A stretch of DNA of 35,628 nucleotides from Deltaproteobacteria bacterium (GTDB lineage: Bacteria; Desulfobacterota; Dissulfuribacteria; Dissulfuribacterales; QOAL01), in NCBI GenBank assembly GCA_027028245.1, contig JALVJO010000097.1, forward strand, positions 1-35,628, written 5' to 3'. This document shows, piece after piece, positions 11-25,280 of the stretch. The number at the start of each line of letters is the position of its first letter. The first letter of the stretch is position 1. Both the position numbers and the translations under genes were made by a program. Below the pieces are notes generated by a model. The model was given only the letters and a program-made list of their open reading frames with translations, searched no databases and was not told the DNA's origin.

Positions 11-796
11 TTACCTGGCAACAGGGCTTACAATGACCTTCTGGGCAAGCCCCTTTCCCAAGGCCACCCTGGAGCCTTTGACGCTGACTATGAGCGGGCC
101 TCCCTTATTGAGCACTTCAACTTCCTGGCCGATGGAAATCCCCATATCGGAAAGCCTTTTTCTTATCTGCGTGCCTCCGTTGAAGTCTGTGATCTTTACC
201 CTTTCACCAGGAGAAACCATGGTGAGGGGCAGACTTCTGCCAAGCTTGCTGCTGCATTCCGGGCACACACCATAAATCGTGCACTTGTTTGAAATAGGCT
301 CAAATCCATACTCCCTGGCGGCATCCCTGATCTTTTCATCCAGTTCTTCGTGTTCGAATTCAACTACCTTGCCGCATCTCATGCACAGCATGTGGTCGTG
401 TCTTTCGCCAACATGGAGATGCTCATACCAGGGGCCCTTTCCGTTCAGTTGCACCTTCTGGGCCAGTCCATAACGGCAGAGAAGATCCAGCACATCTTCC
501 ACCTGGTCTGTTGAGACCTTGACGGATTTCTTGTTGAGCTTTTCCTTTAAATAATCAGTGGTAAGATGGCCTTCGACTGTCAAAAATTCATCGACGATCT
601 GCATTTGAACAGGAGAAAGGGCAGCTCCGGTCTGCTTCAGCAGCCTTAGAAGATCTTCTTTTTCTCTCTGGTGAAGTTTCTGGAAGCAGTTTTCTCCAGG
701 TTCCGGAGGAGTGCCGTCATCCTTGAGTTCACAGGTTTCGCAGTCACCGCATACAACGGGTTCGGATTTCATCTTGTCAAAAAGCCTCTGGAACAC
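11..796 (-). CDS. Fur-family metalloregulator fused to a C-terminal FeoA domain
   Basis: A 261-residue protein with three parts. The first ~40 residues hold a cysteine cluster (C16, C19, C22, C37). Residues ~45-182 form a Fur-type winged helix plus dimerisation domain, with the metal-site signature HDHMLCMRCG (H133, H135, C138, C141) and a second zinc pair C178/C181. Residues ~186-258 match FeoA, the small SH3-like domain of the ferrous-iron uptake system. The start is GTG at 796, preceded by a strong GGGGGAG ribosome site 7 nt away. The gene is divergent from a second Fur gene. Fur repressors sense iron, zinc or peroxide; the FeoA part suggests iron or a link to FeoB, but neither feoB nor another feo gene is in the window. 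FeoA-like SH3 domains are common on DtxR/IdeR repressors and unusual on Fur. Family calls are firm; the sensed metal is not known. Confidence 0.9.
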   Translation of the reverse strand: MFQRLFDKMKSEPVVCGDCETCELKDDGTPPEPGENCFQKLHQREKEDLLRLLKQTGAALSPVQMQIVDEFLTVEGHLTTDYLKEKLNKKSVKVSTDQVEDVLDLLCRYGLAQKVQLNGKGPWYEHLHVGERHDHMLCMRCGKVVEFEHEELDEKIRDAAREYGFEPISNKCTIYGVCPECSSKLGRSLPLTMVSPGERVKITDFNGGTQIRKRLSDMGISIGQEVEVLNKGGPLIVSVKGSRVALGKGLAQKVIVSPVAR

Positions 797-964
797 AATA
801 ACTCTCCCCCTGCAGGCAGGATAAAAAATTGATTTACTGGTATCTCCTTACAGAGATTGTTTTTCATTGTCAATAAGCCTTGACGGAATATGGTAATAGG
901 GTTAGAAAATTTTGCAAAGGCTCACTTAAATTCCGGATCCTCACTTTCTCTTTCAGGAGCAGCA
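797..964. promoter_or_regulatory. Divergent promoter region of the two Fur genes with a Fur-box-like site
   Basis: Leftward promoter: TTGACA on the minus strand at 873-868 and TAAGGA at 850-845, 17 nt apart, reading into the Fur-FeoA gene. Rightward promoter: TTGACG at 880-885 and TAGAAA at 903-908, also 17 nt apart. A 15-bp site at 858-872 (TGTTTTTCATTGTCA) matches 10 of 14 positions of the 7-1-7 Fur box TGATAATnATTATCA and overlaps the leftward -35. Autoregulation by one or both Fur proteins is inference from this layout. Confidence 0.45.
955..959 (+). promoter_or_regulatory. Ribosome site that decides the TTG start of the second Fur gene
   Basis: AGGAG, 5 nt before TTG 965. The upstream ATG at 890 has no comparable site, so this moves the start downstream. 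Confidence 0.6.
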
Positions 965-1423
965 TTGAAATCCGAACTGGAAATATTCAGGGAATTTCTC
1001 AGGAAAAAGGGCATGCGCTATACACCTGAAAGGGAAATCATAATAAAGGAAATCTTTGCCACACATGACCACTTTGACGTGGACAGTCTTTATATCTCCA
1101 TTCGCAGTAAAAAGGGACGTGTATCAAAGGCATCCATATACAGGCTGATTCCCCTGCTCATAGAGGCCAACCTGATTGAAGAGGTCTTTTTTGACGGGGG
1201 GCAAATGTATTACGAGCATATCTACGGCCATGAGCATCACTGCCACCTCCGCTGTGTAAAATGCAGGAGGATCCAGGAATTCAGCGACCAGCGCATGAAA
1301 GACCTTGAACATGACCTGTCAAAACGTTTCAACTACCAGATTCTGAGGCATAAGCTGGAGGTCATGGGCCTGTGTTCTGAGTGTCGTGACAAGGAAAAGC
1401 ATTTGTCTGATGCACCGCCTTAA
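965..1423 (+). CDS. Fur-family transcriptional regulator
   Basis: A Fur repressor: a winged helix followed by the metal-binding block GHEHHCHLRCVKC and a C-terminal CSEC zinc pair. I place the start at TTG 965, giving 152 residues, the normal Fur size. An AGGAG ribosome site lies 5 nt upstream (955-959), and the likely promoter (TTGACG 880, TAGAAA 903) straddles the alternative ATG at 890, which has no ribosome site and would add 25 poorly Fur-like residues. It is divergent from the Fur-FeoA gene and overlaps trmL by 14 nt at its 3' end, so the two are probably co-transcribed. Whether it is Fur, PerR or Zur cannot be decided from sequence alone; the histidine-rich block fits any of them. Confidence 0.9.
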   Translation: MKSELEIFREFLRKKGMRYTPEREIIIKEIFATHDHFDVDSLYISIRSKKGRVSKASIYRLIPLLIEANLIEEVFFDGGQMYYEHIYGHEHHCHLRCVKCRRIQEFSDQRMKDLEHDLSKRFNYQILRHKLEVMGLCSECRDKEKHLSDAPP

Positions 1424-1907: not shown

Positions 1908-3092
1908 TTACAAAAAGATTATGGCAAGGCCCCCGCCGGCCAGAACCACCCAGAGGATATCCACCTTGAGATAAAGGGCCGAAAAGGCAGCAATGCCTAT
2001 CAGGATTGAGGCAAGCTTCCAGCTTATGGCAAGTACAAAGCTTATGAATACTGCCAGAAGAAGTCCCACGAAGGAGGAAAGAACTCCCCGCATGCACTTT
2101 CTGAAAAGAGTGGCATCCTTGAAGTTTTCGAACACCGGGGCTGAGACCAGCAGGATAAGAAAGGATGGTGTAAATATGGCCCAGGTGCAGGCGGCTGCCC
2201 CGAAAAGACCCTTTAGAAGGTAGCCCACGAAGGCTGCGGTAATGACTATGGGCCCAGGGGTGATCTGGCCCAGTGCTATGCCGTCCATGAGGACCTTTTC
2301 CGTCAGCAGATGTCTCTTGTCCACCACTTCGTGAAGCATGAGGGGAAGAGAGGCATAGCCGCCGCCGTAGGCAAAGAAATCTATCTTCATCATGAGGGCG
2401 CAGAGCTTGCCCACCAGGGGATCTGCAATGAAGATTATGGTAAGGATGCCGGCAACTGCCGCTGTAATGATACCGGCAAACCTGACGGATTCCGAGGACA
2501 TGAGCTCCCTCATGTTCTTGGGCTTTGCTGCCTGCTCCCTGCCGTCGGCTTCTCCGGTCTTTTTTGCCGGGTAGAGAAATATTCCGGCCAGGCCGCAGGC
2601 TATTATTGCCGTTACCGGGCTTCCCTTCACAACAAGATATCCTGCCGCTGCAGCCACCAGCAGTGCATCCTGCCAGGAGCGGACCATCTTTCTTCCAAAG
2701 GACAGGGTTGCATTGGCAACAATGGCAACCACTATTACCTTAAAACCAAGAAAACAGGATTCAACCGGCTTAAGGTTGATGGCATGCATGTAGACCATTG
2801 ACAGGATGGTCATGAAGATAAAGGCAGGCAGGGAAAAGCCGGTATAGGCGGCCAGAGAGCCTATGCCGCCTCCTGCCTTGAGACCGGCATAGGCGGCTGC
2901 CTGCATGGCCGTAGCCCCAGGTATGGTTTGAACAAGGGCCACGCCGTGATCAAAATCCTCTCGTTTTACCCAGTTGTTTTTCCGGCACGACAGATCCTTG
3001 ATATACTTGACCATGGCCGGACCGCCGAAGGCAGTACATCCAAGGCGCAGAAAGGAGAGAAAAAGTTTCAGCGGCGGTACATGCTTTTCCAT
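1908..3092 (-). CDS. chrA: Chromate transporter, CHR family (two CHR domains)
   Basis: A 394-residue multi-pass membrane protein with two homologous CHR halves. The first half carries GCTAFGGPAM and QTIPGATAMQAAAYAG; the second carries FFAYGGGYASLPLM and GQITPGPIVITAAFVGY. The halves are joined by a short charged linker (KKTGEADGREQAAKPK). CHR proteins export chromate, probably in exchange for protons; many anaerobe members are untested and could move other oxyanions such as sulfate. The ATG start lies inside the end of bioB (25-nt overlap), so it is the last gene of a bioA-bioB-chrA transcription unit. No chromate regulator (chrB) is nearby. Family call is strong; the substrate is inferred. 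Confidence 0.92.
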   Translation of the reverse strand: MEKHVPPLKLFLSFLRLGCTAFGGPAMVKYIKDLSCRKNNWVKREDFDHGVALVQTIPGATAMQAAAYAGLKAGGGIGSLAAYTGFSLPAFIFMTILSMVYMHAINLKPVESCFLGFKVIVVAIVANATLSFGRKMVRSWQDALLVAAAAGYLVVKGSPVTAIIACGLAGIFLYPAKKTGEADGREQAAKPKNMRELMSSESVRFAGIITAAVAGILTIIFIADPLVGKLCALMMKIDFFAYGGGYASLPLMLHEVVDKRHLLTEKVLMDGIALGQITPGPIVITAAFVGYLLKGLFGAAACTWAIFTPSFLILLVSAPVFENFKDATLFRKCMRGVLSSFVGLLLAVFISFVLAISWKLASILIGIAAFSALYLKVDILWVVLAGGGLAIIFL

Positions 3093-3991
3093 ATCTGCCT
3101 GATCTCCTCTGCAAGGGCCAGATCCACTTCTGGAGGCCGTCCCCTGGTGGTAAGATACCCGCCTATGAGCATTGCATCGGCACCAGCCATGAAGGCCAGT
3201 GCCTGGACCTGGCCAAGTGCGGTCTCCCTGCCTCCTGCTATCCTTAAGGCACAGCGCGGCATCATTATCCTGAACATTGCAACAGCCCTCAGAATCTCCA
3301 CAACGCTCAAGACGGGAAGATCCTGGAGCCTGGTACCCCTTATTGGAACCAGTATGTTGATGGGCACAGAATCAACATTCAGCTCCGAAAGGGTGCTTGC
3401 CATGGAGAACCTGTCTGACTCTCTTTCTCCAAGGCCTATTATGCCGCCTGAACATACCTCCAGGCCGCACTCCCTGGCATGCTGGATGGTTGCAATCCGC
3501 TCCTCAAAACTGTGGGTTGAGCATATGAGCGGGAAATATTCACGCGATGCCTCAAGGTTGTGATGGTACCTGGAAACACCGGCATTTTGCAAGATTTTTA
3601 TTTTACCCTTGCTCATAATGCCCAGGGAACAACAGACATTGATGCCCACCTTCTGCCTTATCTCAAATACCCTTTCGGCAACCTGTTCCACCGTCCTCTC
3701 AGACGGTCCCCGGCCGCTGGTGACAATACTGAACCGCTGGGCACCGGTCCTGGCAGCCTCTTCTGCTTCCCTGAGGAGCACCTCCACTGATTTCAGTGGG
3801 TACAAGGGCGCGCCGGCTTCAGGAGCAGATGCCGACTGGGCACAAAAGGCACAATCTTCGCTGCAGGCACCAGAGCGCGCATTTGAGATGGTGCAGAGCC
3901 CCATCCTGAAGCCCCTGTTTTCAACCTTCAGGTCAAGGGCCTGGTTCATGAGATCCCGAAGGCCGGCTTTCTGGAATGTTTCGAGGTCCAC
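3068..3991 (-). CDS. bioB: Biotin synthase (radical SAM), variant with altered auxiliary-cluster ligands
   Basis: BioB inserts sulfur into dethiobiotin, the last biotin step. The radical-SAM [4Fe-4S] triad is C43-x3-C47-x2-C50 (GACSEDCAFC). Also conserved are YHHNLE, VCSGGIIGLGE, VPINILVPIRGT and RIAGGRE. The length (307) is slightly below the E. coli enzyme. Compared from memory with E. coli, the [2Fe-2S] ligand C97 is replaced by S88 (RFSIVTSGRGP); counterparts of C128 (C120/C121), C188 (C180) and R260 are retained. Extra cysteines C33, C157 and C247 are present. This resembles BioB of strict anaerobes, for which a different auxiliary cluster has been described. The start is GTG 3991, 10 nt after bioA and without a clear ribosome site, so coupling to bioA is likely. 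chrA overlaps its end. Confidence 0.95.
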   Translation of the reverse strand: MDLETFQKAGLRDLMNQALDLKVENRGFRMGLCTISNARSGACSEDCAFCAQSASAPEAGAPLYPLKSVEVLLREAEEAARTGAQRFSIVTSGRGPSERTVEQVAERVFEIRQKVGINVCCSLGIMSKGKIKILQNAGVSRYHHNLEASREYFPLICSTHSFEERIATIQHARECGLEVCSGGIIGLGERESDRFSMASTLSELNVDSVPINILVPIRGTRLQDLPVLSVVEILRAVAMFRIMMPRCALRIAGGRETALGQVQALAFMAGADAMLIGGYLTTRGRPPEVDLALAEEIRQIWKSMYRR

Positions 3992-4001
3992 TTCGGCTAT
4001 T

Positions 4002-5387
4002 TTAAACCCCGGGCAGCAGGCTGCTGGAAACTTCTATAATGGTGTTCCGGGTCAGTGCCATTATCTCTTCTATCTGCTCAGTAGTTACGGAAAGAGGCAG
4101 GAAAAGGTAAACAACATCTGAAAGGGGCCTTAGAATCAACCCCTTTTCAAGGCCCCTTAGATAGACCTGCCAGCCTGCCCTCTTTGATGCATCAAAGGGG
4201 GTTTTTGATCTTTTATCCTGGACCAGTTCAAATGCTGCCACCATCCCTATGCCCCGGACATCTCCCACCATGGGGATGTCAAGAAAGGCCTTTTTGCCCT
4301 CCTGGAGCCTGGCGACCTTTTCGGGCAGGCCCTCCATGACCCTTTGGGATTCAAAGACTTCCATGGAGCCCAGGGCCGAGGCACAGCATATGGGATTGGC
4401 AGTAAAGGTGTGACCGTGGAAGAAGGTCTTGCCCTGGTTGTAATCAGCGTAGAATGCACTGTATACCTCTTCTGTGGTAGCAGTAACGGCAAGAGGCAGG
4501 GTACCGCCTGTGATGCCCTTGGAAAGGCAGACAAAATCCGGGACGATGCCGGCGTGCTCCATGGCAAACATCCTGCCGGTCCGGCCGAATCCAGTTGCCA
4601 CCTCGTCCAGGATAAGATGAATTCCAAAGCGCGTGCACAGCTCATGCACCCTTGTTAAATAATCGGACGGATAAGATATCATACCTCCAGCTCCCATGAG
4701 CATGGGTTCAAGAATGAAGGCTGCTACATTTTCTGCCTCTTTTCCAAGAAGCCTCTCCAGGAAATCAGCACATTCAAGGCTGCATTCAGGGCCCTCCCCC
4801 GGGACATAACGATTTCCGCATGGACAGCGGTAACAATAGGGTGCCGGAACCGTGAAGGAATCGAAAGTAAGGGCCTCAAAGGGGCCTTCAAAGGCAGGTA
4901 CACCGCCGAGGCTCATGGTTCCTATGGTGTCCCCGTGGTAACCCCGCTCAAGGGCAATGAATTTCTCCTTCCTTTTTTCACCGGTGTGTTTCCAGTACTG
5001 AAGGGACATCTTAATGGCCACTTCACAGGCAGTTGAGCCGTTATCCGAGAAGAAAAATTTTCTTAGCTCGAAAGGAAGAAGACGTGCAAGCTTCTCGGCC
5101 AGGAGCACAGGCCCGCGGTGGGTGGTTCCGGCAAAATGTATCTGGTCCAGTCTTTGGAGCTGTTCCTTGATATGACGCCTTATTACAGGATGGTTATGGC
5201 CATGAACAATGCACCACCATGAAGAAATGGTATCGTAATAGCGGTTGCCTTCCAGGTCCCAGAGATAAACCCCTTCTGCCCTGTCCACAAAAAGGAGATC
5301 CCTTTTTTCAAAATCCTTCATCTGGGTATAGGGATGCCAGATGTATCTTTTATCAAGTTCTCTAAGTGTTTGGTTGTCCATAGGCAT
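4002..5387 (-). CDS. bioA: Adenosylmethionine-8-amino-7-oxononanoate aminotransferase
   Basis: BioA is a PLP fold-type I transaminase that makes 7,8-diaminopelargonate. Visible features are WHPYTQMKDF near the start, the SSWWC substrate-pocket segment at ~55-59, HGDTIGTMSLGG, the PLP aspartate in DEVATGFGRTGRM (~261-273) and the Schiff-base lysine K290 in LSKGITGGTLPLA. The length (461) is slightly above usual because of a cysteine-rich insert at 185-206 (C185, C188, C190, C202, C206) that could bind a metal. Some relatives use lysine rather than SAM as amino donor, and I cannot decide which applies. It is the first gene of the bioA-bioB-chrA unit. Two ATG codons (5387 and 5381) could start it, and the ribosome site is weak. 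bioC, bioD, bioF and bioH are not in the window. Confidence 0.95.
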   Translation of the reverse strand: MPMDNQTLRELDKRYIWHPYTQMKDFEKRDLLFVDRAEGVYLWDLEGNRYYDTISSWWCIVHGHNHPVIRRHIKEQLQRLDQIHFAGTTHRGPVLLAEKLARLLPFELRKFFFSDNGSTACEVAIKMSLQYWKHTGEKRKEKFIALERGYHGDTIGTMSLGGVPAFEGPFEALTFDSFTVPAPYCYRCPCGNRYVPGEGPECSLECADFLERLLGKEAENVAAFILEPMLMGAGGMISYPSDYLTRVHELCTRFGIHLILDEVATGFGRTGRMFAMEHAGIVPDFVCLSKGITGGTLPLAVTATTEEVYSAFYADYNQGKTFFHGHTFTANPICCASALGSMEVFESQRVMEGLPEKVARLQEGKKAFLDIPMVGDVRGIGMVAAFELVQDKRSKTPFDASKRAGWQVYLRGLEKGLILRPLSDVVYLFLPLSVTTEQIEEIMALTRNTIIEVSSSLLPGV

Positions 5388-23057: not shown

Positions 23058-25280
23058 TCAGCTGCATTTTGAAAACCCGCATGAACGGCACAGCAGGCAT
23101 CCCTCTTCTATCTCCAGCACTGCCCCGCAATCCGGACAGGCCATTAAGGTATGATCATTCACTTTTATTTCCACATTTGCCACAGAGGCCAGCACCTTGG
23201 CCATTGCATCAGGACAAGAAAGTATCTGGGTGCCCTCAACCCAGCTTGGAGACGGACATCTGATACCTGAAAGCTGCTTTATAATAACCCTGGGACTTAT
23301 GCCTGACCGAAGTGCCAGGGAGATAAGCCTGCTTTCGGCCTCAATCTGGCAGGCTGCACAGCCGCCGGCCTTACCCATCTGGGCAAAGACCTCGCAGAAA
23401 TCGCGGTCATCCCGGTTAACCGTGACATAAAGATTTCCACAGCCTGTCCGGACCTTCTCAGTGACACCATGGGTCCTGAGTGGCCTGGGTCTGGGAGCAA
23501 TCTTCCCGTTTGATTCACAGATACATTCACCCTGGCCAGCAGCCGCTTCCTTTTTCTTCAGGTTAAGGACCTGCACAGGCCTGCTGCCGTACCTGTAAAT
23601 GGTTATACCCTTTAACCCCTTTTCCCATGCCAGCAGGTATGCCTTTCTGACGTCTTCCTCAGAGGCTTCTTCTGGAAAATTGATGGTCTTTGAAACGGCA
23701 TTGTCTGTTGATTCCTGGAATGCCGCCTGTATTGCAATGTGCTCTTCCGGGCTGACATCCATGGAGGTAATGAATATCTTCTTAAGGTCTTCCGGAACCT
23801 CTTCTATGTTCTGCACAGAGCCGGACTCTGCTATCTTTTCCATGAGCTCCGTACTGTATAAGCCCTTTTCCTCCATGGCCTTCAAAAAGAGAGGATGGGT
23901 TTCCACCAGTTCGCTGCCGTCAAGGACCCGCCTTATGTAGCTGACGGCAAAAAGGGGCTCAATGCCGCTGGAGGCTCCGGCGATAATGCTTATGGTGCCT
24001 GTGGGAGCAATGGTGGTAGTAGTGGCATTTCTCATGTAGGGGGTTTCAGGTTTATCATAAATACTGCCCTTGTAAGCTGGGAAATTGCCACGTTTTTCAG
24101 CCAGGGCTGCCGATGCCTTCTTGGATTCGTCTTCGATAAAGGCCATTATCCGCCTGGCAGTTTCCACTGCAGTGCTGGAATTATATGGAATGCCCAGAGA
24201 TATGAGAAGATCTGCAAAGCCCATGACGCCCAGGCCTATTTTCCTGGTTTTCCTGGTCATCTTCCTGATCTCATCCAAAGGGAACTTGTTGGCGTCTATG
24301 ACGTTGTCCAGGAAGTGCACGCTCTCCCAGACGATCTCCTTCAGACCCCGGAAATCTATCTCCATGTCGGCACCAACAAACTTGCCAAGGTTTATAGAGC
24401 CAAGGTTGCATGATTCATAGGGAAGAAGGGGCTGCTCGCCGCATGGGTTGGTGCTTTCTATCTCCCCCAGATGGGGCGTGGGATTGGAACGGTTGATCCT
24501 GTCCAGGAATATGATACCAGGTTCACCGTTTGCCCAGGCCGAATGAACGATTTCAGCAAAGACCTCCGAGGCAGGCAGCCTTCTTACTTCCTGACCGGTC
24601 CTTGGGTTGACCAGGCCGTAACTCTCCCCCCTTCTTGCTGCCTCCATGAATTCCTCGGTCAGGGCCACTGAAATGTTGAAATTATTCAGCCGGTCGGTCT
24701 TTGTCTTGGCGGTAATGAACTTTTCGATGTCAGGATGGTCCACCCTGAGAATTCCCATGTTTGCACCCCGCCTGGTGCCACCCTGTTTTATTGTCTCCGT
24801 GGCCACATCAAATATGGTCATGAAGGAGATGGGACCGCTGGCCACCCCATGGGTAGTCTTGACTATGTCGCCTTCAGGCCTGATCCGTGAAAATGAAAAA
24901 CCTGTGCCCCCTCCGCTCTTATGTATCATTGCGGTATTTTTTACTGCCTCAAATATGCTTTCTATGGAATCTTCTATGGGAAGGACAAAGCAGGCCGAAA
25001 GCTGCCCCAGCACCCTGCCTGCATTCATCAAGGTGGGGCTGTTGGGCATGAATTTCAGGCTGGTCATCATGTTGTAAAACTTGTCTGCCACTGCCTTGAT
25101 ATCTGCATTGCTGTCATATAAACGGTCAGATTCGGCAATGACATCAGCCACCCGCCTGAACATATCCTCCGGGGTTTCTATTACTCTGCCATGATCATCC
25201 TTTTTGAGGTATCTCCTGGCAAGCACCACCAGTGCATTGTCACTTAGGGGAAGATTGGTGCGAGGAAGTTCCTGGTGCAT
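23058..25280 (-). CDS. nrdJ: Adenosylcobalamin-dependent ribonucleotide reductase (class II)
   Basis: A 740-residue NrdJ that reduces ribonucleotides to deoxyribonucleotides without needing oxygen. The active site reads N278-x-C280-x-E282 (STNPCGEQ), with the reducing pair C97 (SACFVLP) and C291. [23 protein letters not shown] and the [17 protein letters not shown] glycine-rich segment are conserved. The C-terminal tail has a CPDC-x-CRSC zinc-finger-like module, typical of B12-dependent enzymes. The start ATG 25280 is 14 nt from AAGGAGG. Two NrdR-like boxes 31 bp apart lie 61-107 bp upstream. No class I (nrdAB) or class III genes are in the window. It leads the nrdJ-DUF2141-comEC cluster. Confidence 0.95.

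Follow-up and report, generated by a model that had tools for sequence, protein, structure and literature searches.

The bioB gene and its genomic setting

The window, by which we mean the whole 35,628-nucleotide stretch of DNA analysed here, carries on its minus strand a bioB gene (3068..3991, (-)), an open reading frame of 307 aa with a GTG start whose product is predicted to be a biotin synthase with the Type II ligand set. This product scores 359 bits against the NCBIfam bioB model TIGR00433 (cut-off 225), and its best matches in the PDB are 8vdw and 8vcw. None of the other radical-SAM models of NCBIfam reached its own cut-off, those for HydE, PylB and LipS matching more weakly. The radical-SAM motif CSEDCAFC (3842..3865, (-)), in which C43, C47 and C50 form the CX3CX2C signature of the SAM-cleaving [4Fe-4S] cluster, is invariant in alignment A1.

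Ten bp upstream and on the same strand lies bioA (4002..5387, (-)), encoding 7,8-diaminopelargonate synthase (TIGR00508, 518 bits, cut-off 405). The two genes likely constitute an operon, and their order is kept in nearly all loci of the same order that we examined. The host genome (2.86 Mb, 96% complete) contains a single BioB copy, with bioD and bioF-like genes located elsewhere; the bioF matches are strong but remain below the strict cut-off of the model. By the curated model, the CX3CX2C motif and the biotin-pathway context, the predicted product of 3068-3991 is BioB.

At its 3' end bioB overlaps by 25 bp with a gene for a ChrA-type transporter (1908..3092, (-)), and the order bioA-bioB-chrA recurs in the same-family genomes examined. 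Elsewhere in the window, a gene for a Fur-family regulator with a FeoA domain fused to its C terminus (11..796, (-)) adjoins a second, divergently oriented Fur-family gene (890..1423, (+)), and the large chain of a ribonucleotide reductase, with a TSCPD domain at its C-terminal end, is encoded at 23058..25280 (-). No RNA elements were found in the window with Rfam.

Diagnostic residues and the Type II assignment

The deduced protein contains cysteines at positions 33, 43, 47, 50, 120, 121, 157, 175, 180 and 247. A preliminary description of this DNA had proposed that the classical [2Fe-2S] ligand, C97 of E. coli BioB, is replaced by serine, and both the phmmer alignment to E. coli 1r30 and the MAFFT alignment agree: Ser88 (3728..3730, (-); RFSIV) occupies the position of Cys97 (RFCMG), and none of the alignments run placed a cysteine there. 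The remaining correspondences proposed at that time were likewise recovered, with Cys120 of the C120/C121 pair (3632..3634, (-)) as the counterpart of Cys128, Cys180 (3452..3454, (-)) of Cys188, and Arg250 (3242..3244, (-)) of Arg260, the last being a position at which other Type II-like sequences frequently have I, K, V or T. The E. coli residue numbers used here agree with the chain offset in the phmmer alignment to 1r30. The additional cysteines listed previously, C33, C157 and C247, are present at the positions given, and C175, which had gone unmentioned, joins them. Cys33 (3893..3895, (-)), on barrel strand 1, and Cys157 (3521..3523, (-)), within ICSTH, are Ser and Ile, respectively, in the E. 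coli enzyme, which shares about 35% identity with the query as well as its fold, the radical-SAM motif and the counterparts of C128, C188 and R260. Cys33, Cys120 and Cys180 are predicted to be ligands of the auxiliary cluster. As S88, C33 and C120 are common to three genomes of the same genus and many of the same family, and C157 nearly so, these residues do not stem from sequencing error.

We take 8vdw and 8vcw, which according to their Foldseek titles are the biotin synthases of Veillonella parvula and Blautia obeum, to be the structures reported by Lachowicz and co-workers, judging from organism and release date. Among sequences of solved structures, these two (1e-72 and 9e-61, respectively) match the query ahead of E. 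coli 1r30 (3e-53). Moreover, at the six diagnostic positions (C33, S88, C120, C157, C180 and R250) all three proteins are identical, and they share the radical-SAM motif. An AlphaFold model of the query (mean pLDDT 94.2, pTM 0.92) places C33, S88, C120, C180 and R250 on barrel strands and C157 just past a short helix. In VIA-align comparisons, this model scored Z values of 44.3 with 8vcw and 43.9 with 8vdw, which we regard as tied (rmsd 1.2-1.4), compared to 41.5 with 1r30 and 34.1 with HydE as the next best. The hosts of both Type II enzymes are apparently anaerobic. They differ from the query in that overall identity is about 40-43%, that the query adds C175 and C247, and that its C121 has no counterpart in B. 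obeum.

A tree of 132 BioBs, computed by a quick method with SH-aLRT support after leaving out eight columns of the ligand region, places the query in a 61-row clade together with 8vdw and 8vcw (SH-aLRT 96), apart from 1r30, which falls with most of the C88-bearing aerobic sequences into another group (support 94). A third group contains many Desulfobacterota-like sequences with the same pattern of C33 without C88, so the tree does not support a single clade for all Type II-like sequences. The division into Type I and Type II enzymes, and the [4Fe-5S] cluster with ligated sulfide in the latter, are credited to Lachowicz et al. 2024 (JACS, 10.1021/jacs.3c05481) in PMC11138216 and PMC11099021. 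Sequence, fold, tree and host metabolism thus all favor the earlier suggestion of an anaerobe-type BioB with a different auxiliary cluster, and we predict with high confidence that the query is a functional Type II (anaerobe-type) biotin synthase, whose putative [4Fe-5S] cluster is assigned from homologues about 40-43% identical to it. The query therefore adds a member to the type described in 2024, and nothing in the gene points to a further variant, an option which the preliminary description had also raised and which is unsupported for an enzyme whose candidate ligands are the same as those of the two crystallised Type II proteins.

Natural variation and alternative readings

Cys180 is invariant in all 132 BioBs, whereas the other candidate positions vary. 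C33 without C88 occurs in 112 sequences, C88 without C33 in nine, and both in eleven (ten Campylobacterota and L073), while no sequence lacks both. The proposal that C33 is a new ligand is thus well supported, as this residue is found in 123 of the 132 proteins, including every one without a cysteine at the C97 position. This distribution also bears on the idea that the query might be a Type I enzyme holding a [2Fe-2S] cluster in which Ser88 substitutes for Cys97. Such an enzyme would be in line with the retention of C120, C180 and R250 from the Type I set, and serine can ligate iron. However, many relatives that otherwise resemble the query have Gly at 88 (the pattern CGCCCR in nine sequences, and more), so no side chain is required there; C33 accompanies the absence of C88 in 112 of 112 cases; and the tree, from which the ligand columns had been removed, still groups the query with Type II. 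We therefore reject Ser88 as a ligand and consider a Type I enzyme of this sort very improbable.

No greater likelihood can be given to an enzyme that is neither Type I nor Type II and recruits C121, C175 or C247, three cysteines of the query that have no equivalent in the B. obeum protein. C121, adjoining C120, is also present in 8vdw but is Ala in most relatives. Among the loci checked, C175 is limited to the genus of the query and C247 occurs outside the query only in L011, so neither is a family ligand. Given this poor conservation, and a core residue set identical to that of Type II, the three cysteines were rejected as ligands. Least probable, and almost negligible in our estimation, is a BioB-like radical-SAM enzyme acting on another substrate in the manner of HydE, PylB or LipS. 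The superfamily is shared and these families do give weaker matches, but the BioB model alone passes its cut-off, the gene is the sole bioB of a genome in which bioA adjoins it and bioD is present, and the fold scores a Z of 44 to BioB against about 34 at most to HydE; a function outside biotin synthesis was rejected on these grounds.

Returning to the Type II assignment, the relatives show that its predicted auxiliary site is plastic, as seen from substitutions at positions 120 and 157. Among the 112 proteins with C33 and no C88, both positions are cysteine in 77; in 23, C120 is combined with V, I, T or A at 157; in ten, D, S or A at 120 is combined with C157; and in two, D120 occurs with A or I. 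Across all 132 BioBs, 81 have both cysteines, 27 only C120, 21 only C157 and three neither. By parsimony, the tree requires at least 12 changes at C157. When dependence was tested phylogenetically for C33 with C88 and for C120 with C157, there were too few independent pairs to give significance, so the "one or the other" pattern of C120 and C157 is descriptive.

The earlier proposal of C157 as a ligand accordingly has partial support, less than that of C33: the residue is present in both Type II structures, but V, I, T or A takes its place in 25 of the 112, including genomes of the same order with a sole BioB. These same-order relatives mostly adjoin bioA, and theirs is the only BioB found per genome at a comparable score, so their enzymes probably work without C157, which would then be a non-essential, auxiliary or second-shell residue. 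Furthermore, six sequences (L028, L032, L037, L044, L046 and L047) have just six cysteines in the aligned region, namely the three of the radical-SAM motif plus C33, C120 and C180. The simplest reading is that the latter three may suffice for the cluster and that C157 is dispensable. Whether this extends to Type II in general, with an auxiliary site of C33, C120 and C180, an exchangeable C157, and some lineages carrying D, S or A at 120 while keeping C157, is a proposal that we put forward tentatively, at a little under even odds.

Several sequences in the sample depart from these patterns. Of the candidate ligands, L109 and L131 (Natronococcus occultus) have just C33 and C180, with D120 and no C157, and L008 and L009 combine the Type I set (C88, C120, C180, R250) with C157 and have Gln or Tyr at 33. 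The Campylobacterota BioB resembles the query in C33, C157 and C180 but differs from it by additional C88 and C122, the lack of C120 and a Met at 250 (the Arg260 position), and forms a separate tree branch (L005, L006 and L138-L149). It presumably corresponds to the group that NCBIfam lists as NF006308/PRK08508. Two other Campylobacterota genomes in the sample, L136 and L137, have an ordinary Type II gene in its place, which suggests transfer.

Proposed chemistry, lifestyle and implications

In the mechanism that we envisage, the SAM-cleaving cluster would generate a 5'-deoxyadenosyl radical that abstracts hydrogen from dethiobiotin. The inserted sulfur would then be the sulfide that the auxiliary [4Fe-5S] cluster binds, and not one of the bridging sulfides of a [2Fe-2S] cluster that is sacrificed. 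Judging from natural variation, the auxiliary cluster may be held by C33, C120 and C180, so that one iron is free to take the extra sulfide, with C157 presumably located nearby yet non-essential.

The host encodes the dissimilatory sulfite reductase DsrA (571 bits), and a search covering the heme-copper type of oxidase gave no match in its genome, which together suggest an anaerobic sulfur metaboliser. A comparable relation to oxygen emerges from the reference sequences. BioBs of Selenomonas, Fusobacterium, Bacteroides, Eubacterium eligens and Ilyobacter, which are anaerobes, have C33 and no C88, whereas the reverse pattern, C88 without C33, is seen in the aerobic or facultative E. coli, Acinetobacter, Staphylococcus, Paenibacillus and Mycobacterium, and also in Alicyclobacillus. 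The named references thus agree with an oxygen rule in which C33 without C88 goes with anaerobic and C88 without C33 with aerobic or facultative life, except for Natronococcus, an aerobic archaeon whose BioB has C33, G88, D120, I157, C180 and R250.

With this gene, the Type II biotin synthases gain a sulfur-metabolising, apparently anaerobic lineage. The bioB family model gives one name to both types and leaves the two chemistries unseparated, while positions 33 and 88 separate most of them. If the three-cysteine reading is true, Type II BioB would be a family of swapping ligands instead of a fixed four-cysteine set, and the query would stand at one end of its range. Its relatives, as natural "mutants" at C157 and C120, could reveal which cysteines hold the sulfur-donating cluster.
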